Position numbers and translations under genes: made by a program
Shown here: in pieces, positions 19,716 to 54,897 of the stretch
Layout: the number at the start of each line of letters is the position of its first letter
Position numbering within the stretch: the first letter of the stretch is position 1
Assembly (NCBI GenBank): GCA_019239415.1
Contig: JAFAZW010000061.1
Span: forward strand, 62,001-126,000
Source: Alphaproteobacteria bacterium
Lineage (GTDB): Bacteria > Pseudomonadota > Alphaproteobacteria > Sphingomonadales > Sphingomonadaceae
Direction of reading: 5' to 3'
DNA: 64,000 nt
The notes under the pieces: model-generated
Told to the model about the DNA's origin: nothing
Seen by the model: only the letters and a program-made list of their open reading frames with translations
Database searches by the model: none

Positions 19716-19797
19716 CGTCATCCCGGCGAAGGCCGGGATCTCAGGACAAGAAGTCTCGGTGGGTCTCAGGGAGGTCCCGGCTTCCGCCGGGACGACG
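19716..19797. repeat. Nested palindrome, CCCGGC-GCCGGG family
   Basis: CGTCATCCCGGC starts the left arm and GCCGGGACGACG ends the right arm. It fills the gap between the acyl-CoA dehydrogenase and the hydrolase and ends 4 nt before the hydrolase GTG, so it covers the place where a ribosome binding site would be. Confidence 0.8.
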
Positions 19798-20865: not shown

Positions 20866-20947
20866 CCTCATCCCGGCGAAAGCCGGGATCTCCATGAGAC
20901 CCGCCGAGACCTTCCGAACGGAGATCCCGGCCTGCGCCGGGATGACG
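20866..20947. repeat. Nested palindrome, CCCGGC-GCCGGG family
   Basis: The left arm begins CTCATCCCGGCGAAAGCCGGG and the right arm ends CGCCGGGATGACGG. Its right edge runs into the GGAG ribosome binding site of the hydratase gene. Confidence 0.8.
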
Positions 20948-38774: not shown

Positions 38775-38856
38775 CGTCATCCCGGCGAAAGCCGGGATCT
38801 CCCGGAGGAAAGGCACTGCGTGTCAACCTGAGACCCCGGCTTTCGCCGGGGTGACG
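38775..38856. repeat. Nested palindrome, CCCGGC-GCCGGG family
   Basis: It runs from CGTCATCCCGGCGAAAGCCG to CTTTCGCCGGGGTGACG between aspS and ppk2. Its left edge touches the ppk2 ribosome binding site (minus strand). Confidence 0.85.
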
Positions 38857-40696: not shown

Positions 40697-40782
40697 CGTC
40701 ATCCCGGCGAAAGCCGGGATCCACCTGCCTTTCGCCAGCCTGTGTGAGAAGAAGGTGGATTCCGGCATTCGCCGGAATGACG
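40697..40782. repeat. Nested palindrome, CCCGGC-GCCGGG family
   Basis: It starts CGTCATCCCGGCGAAAGCCG, has inner TCCACCTG and AAGGTGGAT, and ends TTCGCCGGAATGACG followed by CTTTTT. It lies between the divergent aspS and rnd genes. Confidence 0.85.
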
Positions 40783-42863: not shown

Positions 42864-43727
42864 ATGCGACGAGGCGGCGCGCGGCGGACCGGGGTCGCCC
42901 TCGTCCTGCTCCTCCTCGCGTTGCTCGCGGGAACGTTCGTCTATGGACTGCGGGAGGCGGTCTCGCCGCCGCTGCGCCGCGAGGCGCGGCTTGCGCTGCC
43001 GGGTTGGCCGAGGGGCACGCCGCCGCTCCGCGTGGCGTTGCTCTCCGACATCCACCTCGGCAACCGCGCCATGACGCCCGCACGGCTTCACGCCATCGTC
43101 GCGAGCGTCAACGCCGCGCACCCCGACATCGTCCTCCTCGCCGGCGACTTCGTCGCCGGGCGCAGGAGCGACGGGGCGACGGCGAAGGCCGCGGCCCTCA
43201 GCGCGCCGCTGTCGCGCCTCCGCGCGCCGCTGGGCATCGTGGCGGTCCTCGGCAATCACGATTATTGGACCGACCCCGGCGCCGTGCGCGCCGCGCTGGC
43301 AAAGGCAGGCGTGACCGTCCTCGCCAACCAGGCGGTGGCGCGGGGGCCACTGGCGCTGCTCGGCGTCGACGACGCTTTCTCCGGCCACGACGACGTCCCC
43401 GCGACCCTCGCGTCGCACGTGCGCGGGGTGCCCGTCGTGCTCAGCCACTCGCCCGACGTCGTGCACAAGCTGGGAGCGGGTTTTCCGCTGGTCCTCGCGG
43501 GGCACACCCATTGCGGCCAGGTCGTGCTGCCCTGGTACGGACCGGTGACGACGCGCGCGCCGCTCGCGGGCTGGAAGCCGCTTTACGACCCGCGCTACCG
43601 GTGCGGCCTCGTCCAGAGCGACGGTCGACGGGTGGTCGTCACCGCCGGCCTCGGCTCCGGCACCACCCCGATCCGCCTCGGCGCGCCGCCCGACTGGTGG
43701 CTGCTCACGCTCGGGCCGCGGCGGTGA
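42864..43727 (+). CDS. Membrane-anchored metallophosphoesterase (YkuE-like)
   Basis: A 287-residue calcineurin-like phosphoesterase with an N-terminal membrane segment (about 10-30). The five metal-binding motifs are in order: LLSDIHLGN, LAGDFVAG, LGNHDYW, VLSHSPDV and LAGHTHCGQV. In this family the substrate is often a lipid-like or nucleotide phosphoester such as UDP-2,3-diacylglucosamine, but nothing here fixes it. It starts 22 nt after tatC on the same strand. The repeat array begins about 80 nt downstream; nothing is seen between. Confidence 0.9.
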   Translation: MRRGGARRTGVALVLLLLALLAGTFVYGLREAVSPPLRREARLALPGWPRGTPPLRVALLSDIHLGNRAMTPARLHAIVASVNAAHPDIVLLAGDFVAGRRSDGATAKAAALSAPLSRLRAPLGIVAVLGNHDYWTDPGAVRAALAKAGVTVLANQAVARGPLALLGVDDAFSGHDDVPATLASHVRGVPVVLSHSPDVVHKLGAGFPLVLAGHTHCGQVVLPWYGPVTTRAPLAGWKPLYDPRYRCGLVQSDGRRVVVTAGLGSGTTPIRLGAPPDWWLLTLGPRR

Positions 43728-43866
43728 CGGTGGCGGACACGGCCGCCGCAGGTTGCGCGGACGCTGCCGAGACAGTCGTCATGGCGCAAGGATACGAAAA
43801 GCCCGACCCTGAACCAGGTTCGGCATGACGGGTCGACGATGTGATCGATCGCCCGCGCTCCCGCGG

Positions 43867-43952
43867 CGTCATCCTGGACCTGGTTCAGGGTCCAGCTGGT
43901 TGACGGTCCGCGCGGGTGGAGGCCTGGATGCTGAACCAAGTTCAGCGTGACG
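43867..43952. repeat. Palindrome unit A
   Basis: It runs from CGTCATCCTGGACCTGGTTC to GAACCAAGTTCAGCGTGACG, with inner TCCAG and CTGGA. Its central part is identical to that of unit D. Confidence 0.85.
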
Positions 43953-43989
43953 GCGGTCGAACGATGCACGAGCGGCTGCGCTCCTCCGG

Positions 43990-44074
43990 CGTCACCCTAA
44001 ACTTGGTTCAGGGTCCAGCTGGTCACCCGCCGCGGGGGTGGAGGGCTGGGTGCTGAACCAAGTTCGGCATGACG
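43990..44074. repeat. Palindrome unit B
   Basis: It runs from CGTCACCCTAAACTTGGTTC to GAACCAAGTTCGGCATGACG. It is the unit nearest the 3' end of the GIY-YIG gene, 28 nt from it. Confidence 0.85.
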
Positions 44075-44102
44075 GATCCAGAGGGGCGGCGACTGTGGGG
44101 CG

Positions 44103-44432
44103 TCAGCCGCCGCCTCGTTTCGAACGCTCCGCGACGGGATCGAAGCCGAGGTCTACCGCCAGGTCGAGCCAGTGCGGGTTGTTTGCCTCGATGAGGTTGA
44201 TCTTCCACGGCCGGTGCCAGTTCTTGAGCTGCTTCTCGCGGCGGATGGCCAGCTCCATGTCGCCGAACGCCTCGACATGAACGAGGCGGAAGATCCCGTA
44301 GCGGCTTGGAAAGTGGGAGCGGACGCCGTTGCGATGCTCCCAGATCCGCCGCATCAGGTCGGAGGTGACGCCGGTGTAGATGCTGCCCCGGAACCGGCTG
44401 GCAAGCAGGTACACGAATGGGTCGCGGTCCAT
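44103..44432 (-). CDS. Small GIY-YIG nuclease domain protein
   Basis: A 109-residue protein that is essentially one GIY-YIG domain. It starts VYLLASRFRGSIYTGVTSD (the GIY and YIG strands, with Y-T-G for Y-I-G). The helix LMRRIWEHRNG carries the conserved Arg, and AIRREKQLKNWHR the metal-binding Glu and Lys/Trp pair. Stand-alone domains of this kind (UPF0213/YhbQ-like) are widespread, but their role is unclear. ATG 44432 is used; a TTG lies two codons upstream, and no ribosome binding site is seen. It is flanked on both sides by two nested palindromes. Confidence 0.85.
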   Translation of the reverse strand: MDRDPFVYLLASRFRGSIYTGVTSDLMRRIWEHRNGVRSHFPSRYGIFRLVHVEAFGDMELAIRREKQLKNWHRPWKINLIEANNPHWLDLAVDLGFDPVAERSKRGGG

Positions 44433-44468
44433 GGGCAAGGGCTAACACGGCTTCGAGGATTGCCACAG

Positions 44469-44554
44469 CGTCACCCTGAACTTGGTTCAGGGTCCAGCTG
44501 GTTGACGGCGCGAGCGGGTGGAGGCCTGGATGCTGAACCAAGTTCAGCATGACG
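44469..44554. repeat. Palindrome unit C
   Basis: It runs from CGTCACCCTGAACTTGGTTC to GAACCAAGTTCAGCATGACG. It ends 37 nt in front of the GIY-YIG start, where the promoter would lie. Confidence 0.85.
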
Positions 44555-44590
44555 GGGCGGGACGATTCACGAGCGGCTGCGCTTCTCCGG

Positions 44591-44676
44591 CGTCACCCTG
44601 AACTTGGTTCAGGGTCCAGCTGGTTGACGGTCCGCGCGGGTGGAGGCCTGGATGCTGAACCAAGTTCAGCATGACG
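44591..44676. repeat. Palindrome unit D
   Basis: It has the same arms as unit C and the same centre as unit A. It lies 16 nt from the end of the ppx gene. Confidence 0.85.
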
Positions 44677-44691
44677 GCTTGCACGGGTCGC

Positions 44692-46158
44692 CTAGCTGCG
44701 CACGCGTAGGTCGGGCCTGCATCCGAGACTCGTCGCGAGCTTCTGGAGGCGGCGGTCGACCGTCTCGCCGTGGAGGTCGCGCTCGCGCTTGCGCAGGGTG
44801 AGGACGACGGCGTCGCCTTCGCGCGAGAGACGGCTCGACTCGAGCGGACCGGCGAGGCCGCCGCTGAGGCGCTGGCCGAGGCGCATGGCGAGGCCCCACA
44901 GGGCCGCCCGCTCGAGGTCCCTGGGCGGGCAGAGCGCGGCGACGGCCGCGTCGGGAAAGGAGCGGCCGCCGCCGAAGTTCGAGAACAGGGCCTGGGCGAT
45001 CATCACCCGCTCGCACGCGTCGACACCCACCCAGTTGCCGTGGAGCGCCATCTCGACGCCGCGCTCGGCGCGGAAATCGGGATGCGCCTGCCAGGCAACG
45101 TCGGCGAGGAGGCAGGCGGCAAGCCGGATCCGCGCGGCCGCCGGCCCATCGTCGAAGACCGGAGCGATCCAGCGGTCGAGGACGTCGCCATGCTCGCCGA
45201 AGCGGCTGAGGCCGCGGCCGGCCGCCCGCGTCGCCTCGATCAAGGGGTCCCGCGCCCGCTCCGCCGGGGTCAGCGCATCGTAGAGGAAGCCTTCGCGGAT
45301 GCCGAAGCTGGAGACGATGAGGTCCGAAGGCTCCAGCTCGGCGACGAGCGCGGAGAGCACCATCTTGGCGGCGGGCAAGGTGGGTATGCGAGTCGCGGTC
45401 AGCATCCTGAGGGTGCGCGGATCGGCCTGGTCCAAATTCGCGATGAGCTTGCGCAGCTCGTCGGGACGCTCCGGGGCCATGCGGTAGGCATGGGTGATGG
45501 GGAGCGGATAGCCGGTGGAGATGATGTCGAGCCGCGCCAGCGCCCGCCACGACCCGCCGACCAGGTAGAGCGGACGCCCCCTGCCCTTCTTCCCGAGCTT
45601 CGACCCGGCGAGCGCCTCCTTGAGGCAGGCGCGAACCATCTGTTCGGTCGCCGCGCCGGGGGTGCCGACCCGCAGCACGCCGAGCGGCAGCGAGACGGCC
45701 CGGCCGACATCGCCGGCTCCGACTCCGGCGAGCTCGAGGCTGCCACCGCCGAGATCGCCGACCAGGCCGTCGGCGTCCGGAATGCCCGACAATACGCCCA
45801 TGCCGGCGAGCCTGCCCTCCTCCTCCCCCGAAATGACCCGCGGGTCGAGGCCGAGCGCCCGGACCTCATCGAGGAAGGCGGCGCCGTTGGTGGCGTCGCG
45901 CACCGCCGCGGTGGCGAGGACCCGGGGCTCGGCGACGCCCATGAGGCCGACGAGCAGCCGGAAGCGGCGCAGCGCCGACAGCGCCCGGTCTTCGGCCTCG
46001 CGCGACAAGCGCCCGGTCTTCGCGAGACCGACGCCGAGCCCCGCCAGCACTTTCTCGTTGAAAGTAATCGACGGCGCCCGCGGCGCGCCTTCGTAGACGA
46101 CGAGGCGCACCGAGTTGGAGCCGATGTCGATGACGGCGGTCGGCGCGCGGGTCGGCAA
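44692..46158 (-). CDS. ppx: Exopolyphosphatase (Ppx/GppA family)
   Basis: A 488-residue enzyme of the ASKHA fold that removes phosphates from polyphosphate (or pppGpp). The N-terminal phosphate loop is VIDIGSNSVRLVVYEG, then LATAAVRDATNGAAF, VISGEEEGRLAGMGV and the second phosphate loop LVGDLGGGSLELAGV. A C-terminal helical domain (from about 310) with AWQAHPDFRAE resembles the HD-like part of the family. The start is TTG with GAGAG upstream. It begins 12 nt after ppk, so synthesis and breakdown of polyphosphate are in one operon. Confidence 0.92.
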   Translation of the reverse strand: MPTRAPTAVIDIGSNSVRLVVYEGAPRAPSITFNEKVLAGLGVGLAKTGRLSREAEDRALSALRRFRLLVGLMGVAEPRVLATAAVRDATNGAAFLDEVRALGLDPRVISGEEEGRLAGMGVLSGIPDADGLVGDLGGGSLELAGVGAGDVGRAVSLPLGVLRVGTPGAATEQMVRACLKEALAGSKLGKKGRGRPLYLVGGSWRALARLDIISTGYPLPITHAYRMAPERPDELRKLIANLDQADPRTLRMLTATRIPTLPAAKMVLSALVAELEPSDLIVSSFGIREGFLYDALTPAERARDPLIEATRAAGRGLSRFGEHGDVLDRWIAPVFDDGPAAARIRLAACLLADVAWQAHPDFRAERGVEMALHGNWVGVDACERVMIAQALFSNFGGGRSFPDAAVAALCPPRDLERAALWGLAMRLGQRLSGGLAGPLESSRLSREGDAVVLTLRKRERDLHGETVDRRLQKLATSLGCRPDLRVRS

Positions 46159-54821: not shown

Positions 54822-54897
54822 CGTCATCCCGGCGCAAGCCGGGATCTCCCAGGGAAGAGGCACCGCCCGTGTCAACTTGCGGCTCGCCGGGATGGCG
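54822..54897. repeat. Degenerate nested palindrome, CCCGGC family
   Basis: CGTCATCCCGGCGCAAGCCG begins the left arm. The right arm (GGCTCGCCGGGATGGCG) is eroded. It lies between pepA and holC, 2 nt in front of the holC start, so it covers the holC ribosome binding region. Confidence 0.7.

Follow-up and report, generated by a model that had tools for sequence, protein, structure and literature searches.

Does a small nuclease gene that lies among palindromic repeats merely share its intergenic region with them, or is it the enzyme that handles and spreads them? The question is raised by a locus in the window, by which we mean the whole 64-kb stretch of alphaproteobacterial DNA (64,000 nucleotides) that was analysed. 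The first-pass annotation had described a single-domain GIY-YIG gene surrounded by one half and four full palindromic units, two full ones on each side. We confirmed this observation, together with its coordinates, which are listed in Table 1.

Table 1. Gene, REP units and duplicated blocks at the window locus.
Feature	Position	Strand	Basis
Half unit, one degenerate CGTC-tagged REP unit (CTGAACCAGGTTCGG)	about 43806..43830	-	sequence reading and motif scan
REP dimer A; units 43867-43891 + (left, degenerate) and 43928-43952 - (right)	43867..43952	.	unit reading and folding
REP dimer B; units 43990-44014 + and 44050-44074 -	43990..44074	.	unit reading and folding
Single-domain GIY-YIG nuclease gene; 109 aa from ATG (44432), 111 aa from TTG at 44438	44103..44432	-	PF01541
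REP dimer C, perfect stems; units 44469-44493 + and 44530-44554 -	44469..44554	.	unit reading and folding
REP dimer D, perfect stems; units 44591-44615 + and 44652-44676 -	44591..44676	.	unit reading and folding
Left block (dimer A, spacer, dimer B); direct repeat of right block, 89% identical	43866..44075	+	DNA search
Right block (dimer C, spacer, dimer D); query that retrieved left block	44465..44690	+	DNA search

The gene sits between the 3' ends of its two neighbours, at 42864-43727 (+) and 44692-46158 (-), which from their sequences we take to be metallophosphatase-like and Ppx-like, respectively. It is flanked by two blocks of about 210 bp, each consisting of two inverted CGTC-tagged REP dimers. 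One earlier suggestion was that a pair of units had been copied as a block. Left and right flanks are duplicates of a single block, with the identity given in Table 1 extending over 210 bp. Two similarities on which the suggestion rested also hold, namely that the inter-dimer spacers of both blocks contain CACGAGCGGCTGCGC and that dimers A and D have a central spacer in common. When up to two mismatches were allowed, CTGAACNNNGTTCAG was matched 11 times in the 64-kb window (mean of 1.42 and largest value of 5 in 100 shuffles), and nine of the 11 matches fall in 43809-44669.

Each 25-nt unit is composed of CGTC, an 8-bp stem, a 5-nt loop (CTTGG in seven of the eight units), the returning stem and CCAG. 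The dimers carry their CGTC tags outward, around an internal spacer of 35-36 bp, and are heterodimers: the stems ACCCTGAA and ATGCTGAA alternate in dimers C and D, so that the small hairpins are each perfect and the long hairpin is bulged. Single-strand folding gave z values of -5.3 to -6.1 against shuffles for three of the four dimers, and of -2.7 for the degenerate one. Dimer partners often differ, in a compensated manner, at stem positions 2-3 (dimers C and D of the window; L066, L089, L138 and L168). Since these compensated differences keep the small hairpins perfect and bulge the long one, they give a hint that the single hairpin is under selection.

The exact window palindrome is rare in its own genome, occurring at 14 places, five of which are at the window locus, and the 226-bp right block has at least 21 DNA matches in the genome among the 40 of 84 candidates that were scored. 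CGTC-tagged REPs of another class, CCGGC, which is the class beside the small GIY-YIG gene L001 of the same genome, are found elsewhere in the window (19716-19797, 20924-20947, 38775-38856, 40697-40782 and 54822-54845); the copy at 40697-40782 is translated within a spurious ORF as IPANAGIH...DPGFRRDD.

The window repeats belong to an already described group, the CGTC-tagged REP superfamily. In the part of Di Nocera et al. 2013 (PMC3733652) that was accessible, these REPs are given a CGTC tag, stems of 8-9 bp, loops of 4-5 nt and tails that are mostly CCA, the superfamily being defined by a stem that begins with A-T pairs and by the CCA tail. They form dimers, and heterodimers in several families, are predominant in alphaproteobacteria, and include Neisseria dRS3 and Rickettsia RPE-4 and RPE-6; the same part of that paper states that no dedicated enzyme was known for them in 2013, and its main text does not contain the term 'GIY'. 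All eight dimer units of the window have the unpaired CGTC tag at one end, a stem of 8 and a loop of 5 (CTTGG in seven), a CCAG tail and A-T as the first stem pair, the second pair being A-T or C-G. As for repetition in mostly inverted dimers, 61 of 65 neighbouring background pairs are inverted with tags outward (the orientation as read here, not equated with HH of PMC3733652), 55 of these 61 with spacers of 30-40 bp. The window class itself is low-copy here, and is one of several CGTC-tagged REP classes in its genome. As to the earlier remark that no established description of such a pairing was known, no paper joining bacterial GIY-YIG proteins with REPs was found in literature outside bioRxiv, most subscription journals and PMC9465073 (which holds both 'GIY-YIG' and 'extragenic'), and the main text of a 2025 REP survey (PMC12306157) contains none of the terms 'nuclease', 'transposase' and 'GIY'.

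The protein encoded at the locus consists of one domain of 109 aa and matches PF01541 with 53.1 bits (cut-off 22.6). The signature residues Y8, Y19, G21, R29, H33, E66 and N85, which presumably have catalytic roles, are invariant in 22 and in 40 sequences. AlphaFold2, given the window protein and 39 relatives, produced a model with a pLDDT of 86.7 and a pTM of 0.80. The PDB entries related to the window protein by sequence are 1zg2 and 1ywl, both UPF0213 proteins, and a fold search with the model retrieved 1zg2 (E 1.7e-4), followed weakly by Slx1 (E 0.017 or worse) and the UvrC domain. Because only 1zg2 passes E 0.001, the structure adds little beyond the domain name, and an NCBIfam search returned no family for the protein. 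An identity with UvrC or Cho was rejected, as the protein has a single domain and the UvrC-like match of the genome is separate (650-aa frame). Neither does it belong with the GIY-YIG homing endonucleases, being a one-domain protein of 109 aa from an intergenic gene. Small UvrC-like genes of this kind are noted in Caulobacter crescentus, with a role described as unknown in the accessible part of that report (PMC1839093). In-frame stops interrupt nine of 80 named relatives, the best 80 of 583 (L129, L151, L153, L164, L167, L170, L174, L177 and L195), and also L005, one of the five small GIY-YIG genes in the genome of the window. Judged from these reading frames, small GIY-YIG genes decay often.

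The frequency of CGTC units beside such genes was determined in 26 congeneric genomes with 70 small GIY-YIG loci, UvrC-like matches being excluded by open-frame size. Two detectors were used, a strict one (CGTC, stem of at least 8 with at most one mismatch, loop 3-5) and a canonical one ([CT]GTC, 8-bp stem, loop 4 or 5). By a stated protein motif, the loci were divided into 36 of the window type (A/B), 30 of C/D type and four others, a split made after the flanks had been viewed. The A/B set includes L042, L056, L077 and L084; L086, a fragment-like match, was retained among the others, which also contain L092, probably a fragment of the window type. With the canonical detector, a CGTC unit lies within 300 bp of 33 of the 36 window-type genes and on both sides of 28, compared with none of the 30 sister loci of C/D type and one of the four others. 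Crude genes in random stretches have a unit within 300 bp in 138 of 1669 cases and on both sides in six (Fisher p about 5e-48 for two-sided units), where the control relies on crude ORFs and gene edges and the GIY-YIG counts on domain-match edges. The first-pass annotation had proposed counting flanking palindromes at GIY-YIG homologues against other genes, and had named the absence of an excess as refuting its hypothesis; the excess observed is very large.

The strict detector, applied to all 70 loci, found units on both sides of 22 and on any side of 29 with flanks of 400/500 bp, and of 21 and 28, respectively, within 300 bp. It found none at 29 of the 30 cold-shock-domain (CSD) loci of the same genomes, L241, clipped by a contig end, being omitted and five of the 29 being clipped on the far side. 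The density of CGTC units is 2.68/kb within 100 bp of the genus genes versus 0.07-0.19/kb beyond 400 bp, with 0.17/kb at 16 UvrC loci and 0.11/kb in eight random 20-kb stretches. Six other tags were near zero beside the genus GIY-YIG genes, with no enrichment of GTAG-tagged hairpins. Neither chance palindromes nor a GC-rich background can account for this, given the controls made with shuffles, with other tags, with distal flanks and with random stretches and genes. A Y1 tyrosine transposase was also considered as the partner and rejected: Y1 genes occur in 11 of the 26 genomes; 10 of 19 matches were read as loci, and CGTC units are absent from nine of these, the tenth (L402) having a single implausible one.

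Further CGTC-led repeats were seen at the flanks of L072 and at those of L211 and L213 (CGTCATTGCGAGCGAAGCGAAGCAATCCAG; CGTCATCCTAGGA..TCCTAGGATCCATG, with a long loop). As these escape a detector limited to loops of 4-5 nt, the detector counts are minima.

A comparison free of any detector, in which 300 bp upstream were aligned with 300 bp downstream, ungapped and in both orientations, was scored as positive at 14 or more (maximum of 12 in 150 shuffled pairs). Loci with a flank below 120 bp were omitted (2/70 in the genus, 2/80 named relatives, 1/29 in a phylum sample). Flank repeats are present at 63 of 68 genus loci, 59 of 78 named loci (from the best 80 of 583 relatives) and 21 of 28 loci of the phylum sample, and in the controls at one of 29 CSD loci and nine of 500 random genes. 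Within the genus they are found at 33/35 A/B, 28/29 C/D and 2/4 other loci, and the C/D value indicates that these genes carry repeats of their own.

Many C/D genes have palindromes of the type TTCGACA(A/G)GCTCA or CCCGAGCGAAGTCGA. Away from PF01541 genes, TTCGACA(A/G)GCTCA was found 17 times in G025, nine times in G008, four times each in G000 and G017, and 0-2 times in seven other sampled genomes; a gene of the matching type is present in G025, G008 and G000, and not in G017. Inspection of nine C-type genes (L004, L031, L038, L049, L055, L058, L067, L070 and L083) and five D-type genes (L003, L029, L035, L053 and L054) revealed no CGTC units and other palindromes on both sides (TTCGACAAGCTCAG..GAACGG; CGTCCCGAGCGAAGTCGAGGGGCG). 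In some cases the palindrome is translated as part of the protein's C-terminal end (RASTGSARTE, RPSTSLGTN). Eleven further C/D-type domains (L028, L030, L032-L034, L036, L039-L041, L061 and L063) share one conserved context and continue into a long open frame, which we take to resemble a methyltransferase of the TrmJ/SpoU type; domain and frame may possibly form a fusion or an overlapping gene.

The genome of the window offers a view of several such genes in one host. It has six PF01541 matches, one of them UvrC-like. Each of the five small ones has flanking palindromes, which differ in sequence from gene to gene. Those of the window gene (CTGAA-CTTGG-TTCAG), of L001 (CCCGGC-GAAA-GCCGGG) and of the stop-interrupted L005 (CCCAGC-GAAG-GCTGGG) are CGTC-tagged, and L004 and L003 have palindromes without the CGTC class (TTCGACAAGCTCAG and CGAGCGAAGTCGAG, respectively). 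In 360 kb of this genome (18 stretches) there are 48 strict CGTC units, with CCGGC accounting for 35, CCAGC for five and CTGAA for three, so that 43 of the 48 are of the three classes adjoining its GIY-YIG genes.

Protein and repeat were compared more widely at 96 of 110 REP-bearing loci (at least 60 aa, no stop), the 110 being among 179 loci examined. Protein distance correlates with stem difference (Mantel r 0.53 for the 29 genus loci and 0.21 for all 96; 0/2000 permutations each). In 55 of 96 cases a protein and the one nearest to it share their stem, versus 15.6 after shuffling (maximum 30), and the protein tree needs 29 stem changes versus 53.9 (0/200 shuffles), a tree that is poorly resolved, with four of 93 inner branches well supported and related loci not independent. 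Where a genome has several classified A/B genes, their stems all differ in seven of eight genomes, two of three being alike in G019. These comparisons show a tendency for the REP sequence to go with the position of the protein in the tree, and not with the host alone. The pairing with the CTGAACTTGGTTCAG family that was originally proposed is real, and it extends beyond this family to several REP sequences.

The repeats dispersed through the genomes tend to match as well. Over 11 genomes, 105 of 155 background units are of the class of the genome's own gene, with 41 expected and one of 5000 permutations as high; the set comprises those of 174 background units whose class adjoins some window-type gene, and units within 600 bp of PF01541 (five stretches) were omitted. 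The expectation in the first-pass annotation that repeats should go with the presence of the gene agrees with this tendency. Some genomes speak against the match: CCGGC, the commonest class of G025 and an equally common or commoner one in G021 (15 each), lies beside no A/B gene found there, the background classes of G002 differ from that of its gene, and G008 and G022 have genes yet only two units each in 160 kb. G003 has two units, and no window-type gene was found in it.

The arrangement of gene and repeats takes more than one form. At 67 GIY-YIG loci with units on two sides, the nearest pair is oriented + gene - at 38, - gene + at 13 and otherwise at 16. The + gene - layout, whose tags point outward as in the background dimers, is equivalent to a dimer in which the gene takes the place of the 30-40-bp spacer, giving an element of about 370 bp; over 18 such loci in the genus the length is 364-592 bp, and in 14 it stays within 364-434 bp. 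The - gene + layout places the gene between complete dimers, as at the window. The positions of these genes turn over almost completely, with 36 A/B loci in 30 sequence contexts, compared with 16 UvrC loci in one, 25 of the 27 Ppx loci in one and 29 CSD loci in 10.

At one locus G011 and G017 have the element. In G021 the sequence that lies beyond it in those two adjoins the left gene directly, and a different ORF comes next. This sequence comparison, in which the ends are not exact, fits an insertion. At the G021 site (L385, about 2456-2920) a short end of a neighbouring gene is present twice, with an unrelated ORF between the copies. No empty counterpart of the window site was found among 27 Ppx loci in 26 genomes, the metallophosphatase neighbour being present only at the window's own locus, and neither this Ppx comparison nor the G011/G017/G021 locus yielded an exact insertion junction or a target duplication.

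The association is not confined to the genus and is seen in further classes and phyla. Among the named relatives, the best 80 of 583, a strict CGTC unit lies within 300 bp of 55, on both sides of 25 and near none of the remaining 25, and the density in the first 100 bp is 5.34/kb. Examples with both sides occupied come from Lysobacter, Dyella, Methylomonas, Gallionella, Kaistia, Magnetospirillum, a Nitrospinae MAG and a planctomycete; in Nitrospira (L159) the strict detector finds units on one side and the stem-classification reading on two. In an even phylum sample of 120 genomes, 38 have a relative, and 29 of the 30 loci given from these were read (own genome omitted). A canonical unit is present at only 10 of the 29, on both sides of eight, and the flank repeat is missing in seven of 28. 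These gaps count against a nuclease dedicated to these repeats, as do the 25 named loci without a strict unit, the in-frame stops in nine named relatives and the lack of an exact junction at the sites compared.

What remains is to weigh how the pairing may have arisen. It is itself well supported, and at the level of sequence comparison we have demonstrated association, a tendency to specificity, orientation and turnover of position; cleavage and mobilisation are what we infer from them. In many bacteria, small stand-alone GIY-YIG genes lie in or between palindromes, each lineage tending to its own repeat, and if these repeats are handled or spread by an enzyme still missing from the picture, such genes are good candidates for it. 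We consider it likely that the product of the window gene is a GIY-YIG nuclease devoted to CGTC-tagged REPs, with a role like that of the RAYTs for their GTAG REPs. The simplest reading extends this to the A/B proteins as a group. Evidence of a similar kind, i.e. two-sided and lineage-matched REPs at a mobile nuclease gene, tied RAYTs to GTAG REPs, according to the accessible part of PMC3733652. The nuclease would recognise the cognate REP in the form of an extruded hairpin or dimer and would nick at or near the CGTC tag, and repair of the break could copy the dimer, or the gene-bearing dimer, to a new site. In such a scheme autonomy would belong to the gene-bearing dimers, and the bare ones would be non-autonomous derivatives of them. 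That the REPs simply collect in intergenic DNA, around a mobile or dispensable gene that tolerates them, is very improbable and already disfavoured: REPs do occur in intergenic gaps (45 of 792 crude ones, at least 60 bp long), but passive accumulation is at odds with the two-sided occupancy of window-type genes, the lack of CGTC units at CSD and C/D-type loci and of any credible one at the 10 Y1-transposase loci, the stems that follow protein lineage, and their divergence among genes of one genome.

GIY-YIG nucleases are known homing enzymes, and a selfish gene of this fold might cut gene-less REP dimers and be copied into them by homologous repair, with the repeats as arms, so that REPs would be exploited and not created. 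Such homing explains the layouts as well as a dedicated nuclease does, both the gene in place of the dimer spacer and the long direct repeats around genes between complete dimers (the window blocks, and flank-repeat scores above 50 at several loci). By itself, however, it leaves unexplained that the background REP classes follow the gene, and the known homing enzymes of this fold have a separate DNA-binding part, which a single-domain protein of about 100 aa does not possess; we regard it as unlikely. Less probable still is a housekeeping role, in which a Slx1-like nuclease resolves or trims REP hairpins and cruciforms and in which its location beside the substrate is regulatory, the flanking REPs acting as an operator or a terminator. 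The weak structural likeness to Slx1 speaks for it, as does an SOS box at one small UvrC-like gene of Caulobacter crescentus (in the accessible part of PMC1839093). A housekeeping gene is nevertheless difficult to reconcile with a position that turns over as that of UvrC or Ppx does not, or with REPs on both sides, in one orientation of which the gene lies inside the dimer, and an operator would leave the background match unexplained. With a dedicated nuclease as the preferred reading, the interpretation in the first-pass annotation, that the protein or its relatives cut or spread the palindromes, is partly supported.

Compared with known systems, the resemblance to RAYT genes flanked by REPs (REPtrons, REPINs), pointed out at the outset with a different nuclease fold, is real. 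In both, a nuclease gene has palindromes of its own class to its left and right, one genome can contain several gene lineages, each with its own REP, and bare inverted dimers are dispersed between genes. In contrast to RAYT/REP, the fold is GIY-YIG and not that of an HUH/Y1 tyrosine transposase, the tag is CGTC and not GTAG, and the protein has about 100 aa; the window system works like a REPtron but is not one by its defining enzyme and tag. The repeats share the CGTC tag, 8-bp stem, 4-5-nt loop, CCA tail and inverted, often heteromeric dimers of those of Di Nocera et al. 2013, described there with no dedicated enzyme, whereas here a GIY-YIG gene accompanies them. With stand-alone GIY-YIG proteins (UPF0213, 1zg2/1ywl; small COG2827 genes) the window protein shares the single domain and the fold, and it differs from them, as described in the accessible parts of the literature searched, in its genomic partnership with repeats. 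The GIY-YIG homing endonucleases (I-TevI and kin) have a like catalytic domain and are likewise gene-borne nucleases in a mobile context; unlike them, the system here has no intron, no separate DNA-binding domain, and dispersed repeats in place of one allelic target.

A broader proposal, which we advance tentatively from the comparative data and hold with somewhat less than even confidence, is that enzymes which mobilise REPs have a second class of independent evolutionary origin, the stand-alone GIY-YIG nucleases, present in several phyla and with lineage-specific hairpin recognition, in which gene-in-dimer units of about 370 bp are the elements and REP dimers their non-autonomous offspring. 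In this proposal the C/D lineages, with palindromes on both sides and no CGTC units, would extend the rule beyond CGTC REPs. The window gene offers a candidate enzyme for the CGTC REPs, which addresses the question left in 2013 in the accessible part of PMC3733652, and would give a function to the common annotation 'GIY-YIG nuclease family protein'. If the proposal is true, two unrelated nuclease folds have converged on the same partnership of repeat and gene, and the gene-in-dimer units are among the smallest autonomous mobile elements in bacteria. The lineage-matched pairs of protein and hairpin would constitute a ready set for learning how a nuclease of about 100 aa reads a DNA hairpin.
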